Below are positions 47,046 through 50,977 of a DNA stretch of 51,062 nucleotides, in pieces. A model generated the notes under the pieces. That model did not search any database. It was not told the DNA's origin and saw nothing but the letters and a program-made list of their open reading frames with translations. How positions within the stretch are numbered: the stretch's first letter is position 1; every line of letters starts with the position of its first letter. Made by a program: the position numbers and the translations under genes. The stretch is from Methanolobus sp. (GTDB taxonomy: Archaea; Halobacteriota; Methanosarcinia; Methanosarcinales; Methanosarcinaceae): positions 5,209-56,270 of the forward strand of contig JARVGJ010000015.1 of NCBI GenBank assembly GCA_029762595.1, read 5' to 3'.

Positions 47046-47161
47046 GCCGAGGTGGCAGAGCGGACTAATCCGGTGGCAAATGTGCCCCGGAGTCCAAACG
47101 CGACCGGCTCGAGACCGGTTTCTCCGGGAGGAGTGCTTGGGTTCAAATCCCAACCTCGGCG
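47046..47161 (+). tRNA. tRNA-Ser(CGA) with a 30-nt insertion in the D arm
   Basis: Acceptor stem GCCGAGG/CCTCGGC with discriminator G (47161) and encoded CCA (47162-47164); anticodon stem ACCGG/CCGGT with loop CTCGAGA (anticodon CGA); a long variable arm typical of serine tRNA; T arm TTGGG-TTCAAAT-CCCAA. The D region is too long by 30 nt. Removing about 47070-47099 restores a GCA/TGC D stem and an 86-nt tRNA. The insert region folds: GGAC (47062-47065) pairs with GTCC (47092-47095), then a 3-nt TAA bulge, then a hairpin (TCCGG/CCGGA with GGCA/TGCC), and AAA follows GTCC. This is the shape of a relaxed bulge-helix element, so a tRNA intron at an unusual place is likely. Confidence 0.88.
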
Positions 47162-47239
47162 CCAGCTTCACAGTCAAACGCCCTACACTTTCACCCTGCT
47201 TATTTTCAAGATATATACAGGGAAAAGGAAGTATTGGAT

Positions 47240-48448
47240 ATGGGACTATATGACTATAAGAAGAACATAGAATCTGCTGAAAAAAGGATAATAGAAGCAG
47301 CATATTCACAAAAAAACAAGGATATTATTTTTGCTTTTGTGAATGTATTGTATGCAGAAGGGCTGTCGGATGCAAGGATTCTCAAATATCTTAGCCAATT
47401 AAATATCCTCAGCGAAAAGTTTGGCAAAGATTTCGACCAAGTCACGATGGCCGATATGTACCGGTTTCTGGCTGAGCTAGAGAGATCTGATAAGAAACCA
47501 TGGACAAAGCAGGGATATAAGGTCACACTCAAGCGTTTCTTCCGCTGGCTTAACGGCGGAAAAGAACCAGAGATGACCGAGTGGATCAAGACACCAATAA
47601 AACAATCAGATCAGATGCTTCCAGAGGAACTGCTTTTAGAAGAGGAATGCATGAAAATGATAGAATGTGCTGATCACCCCCGAGATAAGGCAATGATAGC
47701 AACATGGTACGATGCAGGAGCAAGAGTGGGCGAAGTTGGAGAAGCTAAGATAAAACACGTGGTCTTTGATGATATTGGTGCATTTGTAATGGTTAAAGGA
47801 AAAACCGGAATGAGAAGAGTAAGGTTGGTTTTTAGTGCACCGTATATTGCCAAGTGGTTAGACATCCATCCAAAAAGAAGTGATCCCGGTGCTCCACTCT
47901 GGGTGAACATTGGGAATCGCAATTTTGGAAATCAAATGAATTATGGCGGTATTCGAAAAGTAATAAAATCCACAGCAAATAAAGCAGGTATTAAAAAAAG
48001 AGTTTATAATCACCTGTTCCGGCACTCCAGAGCAACGGATTATGCAGGCTTTATGTCACAAGCACAACTTGAAATGCACATGGGATGGAAACATGGGACA
48101 AGGATGTCTGGAACATATCTTCACCTACAGGGAGGACAGGTTGACAATACGATCCTTGAGCACTATGGACTTAAACAGAAAAAAGAAAAGCCATCAGAGC
48201 TTATTCCACGCAAATGCCCAAGATGCAAAACAGTGAACGGACCAACTTCCGACTTCTGCTGTAGTTGTGGGATGGCCCTTAATGCAGTTGCAGCGACAAA
48301 TATCGATGACATGCAACAACTGGGTATGAAATTGCTTCTTGAGATCGGTGCAACGGACCCAAAAGATGCCCGGGAATTGCAGGGATACCTTGGGAGATTA
48401 AAGGAAGTTCTGTCTGGTAATGATGCAAATTCAATAAGTGAAGAATGA
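47240..48448 (+). CDS. Tyrosine recombinase/integrase with C-terminal zinc ribbon
   Basis: A 402-residue phage-type integrase. The SAM-like N-terminal domain (~40-115) is followed by a catalytic domain with R162 (GARVGE), H258-L-F-R261-H262 and the nucleophile Y293 (SGTYLHL); Lys in KGKTGMRR probably completes the set. The C terminus has a zinc ribbon (CPRCKTVNGPTSDFCCSCG, ~325-343) as seen in archaeal XerC/D-like proteins. The ATG at 47240 follows GGAAGT by 7 nt; a TTG two codons earlier is possible. It begins only 78 bp after the tRNA-Ser gene, the classic target of such integrases. Confidence 0.9.
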   Translation: MGLYDYKKNIESAEKRIIEAAYSQKNKDIIFAFVNVLYAEGLSDARILKYLSQLNILSEKFGKDFDQVTMADMYRFLAELERSDKKPWTKQGYKVTLKRFFRWLNGGKEPEMTEWIKTPIKQSDQMLPEELLLEEECMKMIECADHPRDKAMIATWYDAGARVGEVGEAKIKHVVFDDIGAFVMVKGKTGMRRVRLVFSAPYIAKWLDIHPKRSDPGAPLWVNIGNRNFGNQMNYGGIRKVIKSTANKAGIKKRVYNHLFRHSRATDYAGFMSQAQLEMHMGWKHGTRMSGTYLHLQGGQVDNTILEHYGLKQKKEKPSELIPRKCPRCKTVNGPTSDFCCSCGMALNAVAATNIDDMQQLGMKLLLEIGATDPKDARELQGYLGRLKEVLSGNDANSISEE

Positions 48449-49694: not shown

Positions 49695-50977
49695 ATTCAG
49701 TAGTTCTCTAATTTTCCCTCCATCTTGTTCCTGCTACTATTGAATTACCTTAAACATTGCACTACTAACTGAATTCTTAACTTTCTCCTAAGCCATTCTT
49801 CAACAAACAGAATAAACCTGGCAAATCTGAACTTGTCTTCATCAATGGATATTGGGCCTGGTTTTACTATTGTGAAATGTTTTTTCTGGAGACCGAGCCA
49901 TGCATTTCTCAGCAGGAACGATATTAGTGTTAAGAAGTATCTAAAAGTTACATCTTTTGTTGATGTTCTTGGTTTAACGATATTTCTCATCCGATATGAT
50001 GACTCGATAGCAAACCGTCTTCTATAGACGTTACTAACCTTCCTTTGAGACCAGTTGATTCCATAAACAACAAAAGCAAGGTTCTCATACCCATATTTGC
50101 CTCTTTTACCTTTCAGATACTTCACATCAATTACAATATCCAGATGAACTTCTTTCTTTTGAGCATTCTTCATTACATATTCAGTAGACCTTGCTTTTCT
50201 CCCTTTAAGCAGTTGCTTGATTGTTTTTCCTCTTCTTCTACTGGTGTAATGTGAGGGATATCTTTGTTCTGTAAGAACTCAAACACATCAACTGAATAGA
50301 ACTCCCTATCCAGACAAAGCACCTTGATATTGAAATGCAGTTCCTCGATAAGATTTATGAAATAAGTGAGGTAGTCCACCTTTGTTTTATTCCTTTCAAC
50401 AGGAATAACTGCAAGAGTATATCTCTCGTTCTTGTTTATGATAGACAGTGATACATATGAATAAAAAGAGTTAGTGGATTTCTTGGCCCGACTACGTATC
50501 ACGTAGTCTTCATTGGATGAATCAACTTTTCCATAATATGGATCATTTGTAAAATCGATAGCAAACTCATACTTTTTCTCTGTCTTTAGAGTACTGACAG
50601 AACTTTGAAGAAGAATGCTTTGATTTGCCTGAATAAGCTCTTCAAGACTTAATTTCCTGAGATGGTACCGTAAAGATGTCTCACAGGGAATCTCTTGATA
50701 GTGTTTTGACGCAGAATGAACTGAACTTTTATCCACTGCCATACATATGACAGTGTTAAATATATCTTTAGAGCTAAGTTGACCGTTTATCTTGATATCG
50801 ATATTATCTATAAGCGGTTTGAGAACAGCATCAATACATTGTTTTGGTCTTAATTCAACCTTATTACAGGCCCTTGAATTGAATGGTAGAAATGACATAT
50901 GGCGGCTTTCCCGCCGCATATAAAGCTATCGGAAAGCATAATTCGGTGGCCTATTCAAAATTAGCGAAGTACTGAAT
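49695..50977 (-). mobile_element. IS4-like insertion sequence (about 1.28 kb) with imperfect 21-bp inverted ends
   Basis: Left end ATTCAGTAGTTCTCTAATTTT (49695-49715) and the inverted right end ATTCAGTACTTCGCTAATTTT (minus strand, 50977-50957) match at 19 of 21 positions. They enclose one broken transposase gene on the minus strand. I could not identify a target-site duplication. The right end is 24 bp from the start of the next gene. Confidence 0.8.
49745..50898 (-). pseudogene. Frameshifted DDE (IS4-type) transposase
   Basis: Two overlapping frames make one transposase. The first (from the ATG at 50898) carries MSFLPFNSRAC, the first catalytic Asp in FAIDFTNDPYYGKVD, and the second in CLDREFYSVDVFEF, and ends at 50173. 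The second frame continues homology with RRRGKTIKQLLKGRKARS-like sequence (~50230-50185), LDIVIDVKYLKGKRGKYGYE and the catalytic Glu in YRRRFAIESSYRMR. The switch is at CCAGTAGAAGAAGAGGAAAAAC (near 50230-50245), a -1 step. A 1-bp deletion is most likely, so the gene is probably inactive; programmed frameshifting is an alternative. A GC-rich 5-bp hairpin (50902-50917) lies just before the start, as in elements that block read-through translation. Confidence 0.82.

Follow-up and report, generated by a model that had tools for sequence, protein, structure and literature searches.

A very probable D-arm intron in the tRNA-Ser(CGA) gene of Methanolobus and its relatives

A serine tRNA gene in the stretch of Methanolobus DNA analysed here (51,062 nucleotides, hereafter the window) carries 30 extra nucleotides in its D arm, which raises the question of whether an archaeal intron is spliced from this position and, if so, where the cuts fall. 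Reviews place euryarchaeal tRNA introns at position 37/38 within a canonical bulge-helix-bulge (BHB) motif, which homodimeric (alpha2) splicing endonucleases are described as needing (PMC4090602, PMC4033280, PMC7714728, PMC6379350). Non-canonical introns, including those in the D loop, are an established kind (PMC6379350), and PMC3218864 allows them in three thermophilic euryarchaeal methanogens.

By sequence inspection, window positions 47046-47164 (+) constitute a tRNA-Ser(CGA) gene, with the acceptor pair GCCGAGG/CCTCGGC, discriminator G, an encoded CCA at 47162-47164, the CGA anticodon at 47110-47112, a long class-II variable arm and an intact T arm. The D arm alone departs from this order, as the initial annotation had stated, and runs GGCAGAGC-GGAC-TAA-TCCGG...CCGGA-GTCC-AAA-CGCG. 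Joining the exons yields a complete 86-nt class-II tRNA-Ser whose D arm is identical to that of intronless orthologues. The features of the gene are as follows.

47046-47067, + strand: 5' exon, comprising the acceptor 5' strand, G10 C11 A12 (5' strand of the D stem) and the D loop to A21; read from the sequence and matching the 5' part of intronless orthologues.
47062-47065, + strand: GGAC, the exon side of the central 4-bp BHB helix; predicted by folding and paired in 47/47 sequences.
47066-47068, + strand: TAA, the 3-nt 5' bulge, with the predicted cut after its second base; from folding, with TAA, CAA or AAA in relatives.
47068-47097, + strand: putative 30-nt intron, with in-bulge cuts at 47067/47068 and 47097/47098; junction set by the intronless orthologues, GGACTAACGCG.
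47069-47091, + strand: intron hairpin, its TCC/GGA base conserved and the remainder variable in the alignment.
47092-47095, + strand: GTCC, the intron side of the central helix; from folding and alignment.
47096-47098, + strand: AAA, the 3-nt 3' bulge, with the predicted cut after its second base; from the alignment, with AAA, ATA or TAA in relatives.
47098-47164, + strand: 3' exon, comprising A22 C23 G24 C25, the CGA anticodon arm, the class-II variable arm, the T arm, the acceptor 3' strand, discriminator G and CCA; from the sequence and the 86-nt spliced tRNA.

The initial annotation's assignment to Methanosarcinales proved correct, the genus being Methanolobus. The host genome (2.43 Mb in a 58-contig assembly) contains 41 tRNAs according to Rfam, and ARAGORN decodes no serine tRNAs other than TGA, GCT and GGA, none of which has an intron. 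Both programs missed the tRNA-Ser(CGA) gene, most likely on account of the D-arm insert. A second copy, which the initial annotation had said would speak against a functional intron if intact while this one is silent, was not found: a whole-gene search of the 58-contig assembly returned one match. Separately, ARAGORN calls a tRNA match at locus L086 (G000:C7:1863-1950) a putative tRNA-Gly(TCC) with an 18-nt intron, although an ordinary tRNA-Gly(TCC) is also present.

The insert lies at tRNA position 21/22, in the D arm and not at the canonical position 37/38. Folding of the whole gene gives -54.9 kcal/mol (z = -2.5 against shuffled sequences) and predicts the helix 47062-47065/47092-47095 together with an inner hairpin, the bulge 47066-47068 between them and AAA at 47096-47098 unpaired. 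Sequence and folding agree here with the architecture first described for the 30 nucleotides, namely GGAC/GTCC, a TAA bulge, an inner hairpin and AAA. Two 3-nt bulges of constant length are separated by a 4-bp helix throughout the alignment. Three of the four central pairs are invariant among the 47 distinct sequences, and the outer pair is G-C in 21/47 and G-U in 26/47. The first inner pairs, TCC/GGA, are also kept, while the next pair varies between G-C and A-U. Loop length and sequence vary around this constant core, and the intron measures 17-38 nt across 63 aligned genes. Invariant pairs alone provide no covariation support; the case for the motif is made by a constant BHB core beside a variable loop.

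The insert is not a product of chance: it occupies the same site in all 27 Methanolobus genomes searched (26/26 others and this one), with a BHB core that is invariant or pair-conserving in 47 sequences. It does not match the catalytic core of a group I or group II self-splicing intron, being 30 nt long and giving no Rfam match. Positions 47068-47097 almost certainly represent an archaeal tRNA intron removed by splicing. We are highly confident in the fuller reading, in which this is a functional, vertically inherited intron at the non-canonical position 21/22 of the single tRNA-Ser(CGA) gene found in the genome.

Where the intron is cut bears on an A12-C23 mismatch in the D stem. Cuts at 47067/47068 and 47097/47098, within the bulges, leave A12-C23, whereas cuts at 47069/47070 and 47099/47100 leave A12-T23; the arithmetic of the initial annotation for both candidates was correct. 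Its suggestion that the mismatch might point to a non-standard cut was not supported. The intronless tRNA-Ser(CGA) genes of families f3 and f5 read GCCGAGGTGGCAGAGCGGACTAACGCGGCAGG... (L043-L045, L048, L050, L203, L204), and in-bulge joining of the window exons produces the same GGACTAACGCG as in these orthologues. Because the intronless genes encode both A12 and C23, the mismatch gives no reason to invoke a different cut, and comparison of the genes indicates that it is native to this tRNA. All 105 distinct genes have A12, with C at position 23 in 80, T in 25 and a purine in none; these genes comprise intron-bearing and intronless forms and are related in sequence, so the counts are not independent. 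This pattern fits a tolerated A.C pair and is also compatible with C-to-U editing.

The alternative that survives best is that the intron is spliced in the bulges and C23 is then edited to U, so that the mature tRNA pairs A12 with U23. It would account for the invariant A12 and the constant pyrimidine at position 23, with or without the intron, and positions 12 and 23 are paired in Ser(TGA), Ser(GCT) and Ser(GGA) of the same genome. Against it, C23 has been retained in many independent lineages, as expected of a tolerated A.C pair, and T23 genes occur without obvious consequence. The initial annotation had raised base editing as an explanation of the mismatch; editing is not required, since the intronless orthologues encode the mismatch, and we consider it unlikely. 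To our knowledge, the sole C-to-U editing of an archaeal tRNA is at position 8 in Methanopyrus. A wider proposal, in which C23 becomes U after splicing across the phylum, would define a second archaeal C-to-U site in tRNA, tied to a re-pairing D arm and a broad-specificity alpha2 endonuclease; this seems quite improbable.

Splicing at 47069/47070 and 47099/47100, off the standard bulge position, would restore a perfect D stem with A12-U23. The inner helix begins with T in 47/47 aligned introns, so U23 would result from the shifted cut in every one of these genes. However, its 5' cut would fall within the inner helix and its 3' cut past the bulge, unlike known EndA cuts, and the intronless orthologues encode C23, so that a C23 tRNA is evidently acceptable. 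The shifted cut is rejected on the evidence of these orthologues and retains very little probability. Least credible of all is retention of the insert as an enlarged D arm in the mature tRNA, or decay of this gene copy, given that no other tRNA-Ser(CGA) was found in the genome, that the insert varies in length around a constant splice motif and is exactly what some orthologues lack, and that the acceptor, anticodon and variable-arm helices of the exons are fully paired (100% of cells in the alignment of 47 distinct sequences).

For the preferred reading, an intron spliced within the bulges, the machinery is present in the genome. Its EndA is a single 355-aa protein with two PF01974 domains, closest to the solved A. 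fulgidus-type enzymes, and RtcB is also encoded. Both EndA domains lie in one open frame in 60/60 class genomes with a match, and alpha2 is the only type found. The precursor would fold with exon GGAC paired to intron GTCC and 3 nt bulging out at both exon-intron borders. Homodimeric EndA would then cut each bulge after its second base, at 47067/47068 and 47097/47098, and the RtcB ligase would join the exons. The D arm would refold with G10-C25, C11-G24 and the native A12.C23 mismatch.

The outer part of the motif is less regular, consistent with the earlier description of a splice motif whose outer helix is weak or missing. The inner helix is present, and with the mature D stem kept no outer helix lies directly beside the central helix, an HBh'-like arrangement. 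In the folding predictions an outer helix forms only if G15-C16 re-pairs with G24-C25, giving a 3-nt bulge and a 4-nt 3' bulge. Predicted energies are -52.6 kcal/mol with the D stem, -52.1 kcal/mol with neither, and -51.8 and -50.9 kcal/mol for the outer-helix variants. The outer-helix folds are thus at most 1.7 kcal/mol above the D-stem fold, and the states are so nearly degenerate that the energies do not tell which fold EndA sees. Because re-pairing costs almost nothing in predicted energy, the precursor may switch its D-arm pairing before and after splicing through the G15-C16/G24-C25 helix.

Published specificities bear directly on this step. The alpha2 EndA is described as cleaving the canonical BHB only (PMC4033280, PMC7714728), and relaxed motifs as being cut efficiently only by (alpha-beta)2 and epsilon2 enzymes (PMC6379350); homodimeric enzymes are also reported to cleave BHL-like motifs (PMC8707768). 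The canonical-only specificity published for alpha2, together with the lack of a strict outer helix beside a kept D stem, counts against the intron reading.

The distribution of the insert reaches well beyond Methanolobus. A pattern search found it in named genomes of Methanococcoides, Methanohalophilus, Methanohalobium, Methanosalsum and Methanomethylovorans, as well as in the ANME-2 cluster, Ca. Argoarchaeum and one Methanothrix record. Among 160 class genomes searched, a covariance model built from the 47 distinct sequences scores above 110 bits in 59; its matches in f6, the family to which Methanothrix must belong, have a longer gene. The intron occurs in most Methanosarcinaceae, in f2 (ANME-2), in f4 (GoM-Arc1) and in f6, and similar D-arm inserts appear elsewhere in the phylum, in families f8 and f33. 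It is absent from f3, f5 and f7, the last having a 16-nt intron at 37/38 instead (L195, L196).

Comparison with other Methanosarcinaceae, as proposed in the initial annotation, located the insert in most genera of the family, contrary to its expectation that a D-arm intron would be unusual in this lineage. For tRNA-Ser(CGA) in the class, the D-arm intron is the rule, present in most of the class, and the exceptions are Methanosarcina and a few related families. Because the BHB core is shared, an ancestral intron that was precisely lost more than once is favoured over repeated gain at one site, in a history that leaves out G027, G034 and G035.

In g7 and g11 (large Methanosarcinaceae genomes, presumably Methanosarcina), tRNA-Ser(CGA) reads GCCCAGGTAGTCTAGCGGTAGGGCG... 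(L197-L200, L210). Over the first 26 nt it agrees with Ser(GGA) at 23-24 positions, and the remainder is close to no single serine tRNA. This mosaic suggests that the intron-bearing half was replaced in g7 and g11 through gene conversion or gene replacement. Overall identity, at 60-70% to every candidate, does not settle the origin of the Methanosarcina gene.

Further inserts occur in serine tRNAs of these groups. In relatives of Methanothrix (f6), all 20 loci read (L181-L194, L211-L215, L139) have both the D-arm intron and a T-loop insert, GGGTTCAA...AATCCC, which makes a two-intron tRNA within a class having alpha2 EndA. Loci L234-L236 (f8) combine a short D-arm insert in tRNA-Ser(CGA) with about 30 extra nt in the variable arm. 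Anticodon-loop introns are found in serine tRNAs at L237-L239 (f18), L195-L196 (f7) and L240 (G273); L240, apparently a tRNA-Ser(TGA), seems to carry D-arm and anticodon-loop inserts together. In ANME-2 (f2), extra broken tRNA-Ser(CGA)-like copies (L040, L042 and L049; G056:C87, G040:C106 and G052:C178) lie close to the gene itself, which is intact or partly read, and are split by a two-hairpin element of about 60 nt, TCGAAAATCG-N-CGATTTTCTTATC...CCTCAG. Two genomes have this element in the anticodon stem, the remaining one in the T arm; in six genomes its first hairpin was found only in these broken copies.

Downstream in the window, a tyrosine recombinase gene (PF00589) spans 47234-48448 and starts 70 bases past the tRNA; complete or partial relatives are likewise found after this tRNA in Methanomethylovorans and several more Methanolobus. 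Use of the tRNA as an integrase attachment site was considered and rejected, as searches of the window, and of 20-60 kb of downstream sequence from three other species, found its 3' end repeated nowhere; the only match was 13 nt long (E = 0.1). Two adjacent reading frames at 50173-50919 and 49745-50173 (-) resemble a broken transposase, the first with a weak PF01609 match.

Comparison with known systems shows what this intron shares and where it differs. Like the canonical 37/38 introns of tRNA-Tyr and tRNA-Met in this genome, it has 3-nt bulges, a 4-bp helix and central pairing of exon with intron, and EndA and RtcB are present; unlike them, it lies in the D arm, where an outer helix would have to compete with the D stem. 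As described in PMC6379350 and PMC3218864, introns in the D, T and acceptor arms of Crenarchaeota and Thermoproteales similarly lie outside the anticodon loop with a relaxed-looking BHB. Those hosts possess an (alpha-beta)2 EndA whose specificity is widened by a loop, whereas the class studied here has only alpha2 EndA. The three thermophilic methanogens of PMC3218864 provide a euryarchaeal parallel outside 37/38; in contrast, the Ser(CGA) intron occurs in mesophilic and psychrophilic as well as other methanogens and in methane and ethane oxidisers, at one fixed site conserved across a class.

No description of the Ser(CGA) D-arm intron was found in the literature searched; GtRNAdb and SPLITSdb lay outside its scope and may list it. 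Non-canonical D-arm introns are a known kind, and what stands out here is the age of this one, its alpha2 EndA host and the A12.C23 question. A D-arm intron across a class with only alpha2 EndA contradicts the generalisation that ties euryarchaeal introns to position 37/38 and a canonical BHB, and the Ser(CGA) precursor offers a ready substrate for testing EndA specificity. Because ARAGORN and Rfam fail to detect the gene, annotations of such genomes may list tRNA-Ser(CGA) as missing. Methanosarcina, the model genus behind current expectations, is itself the exception in its class.
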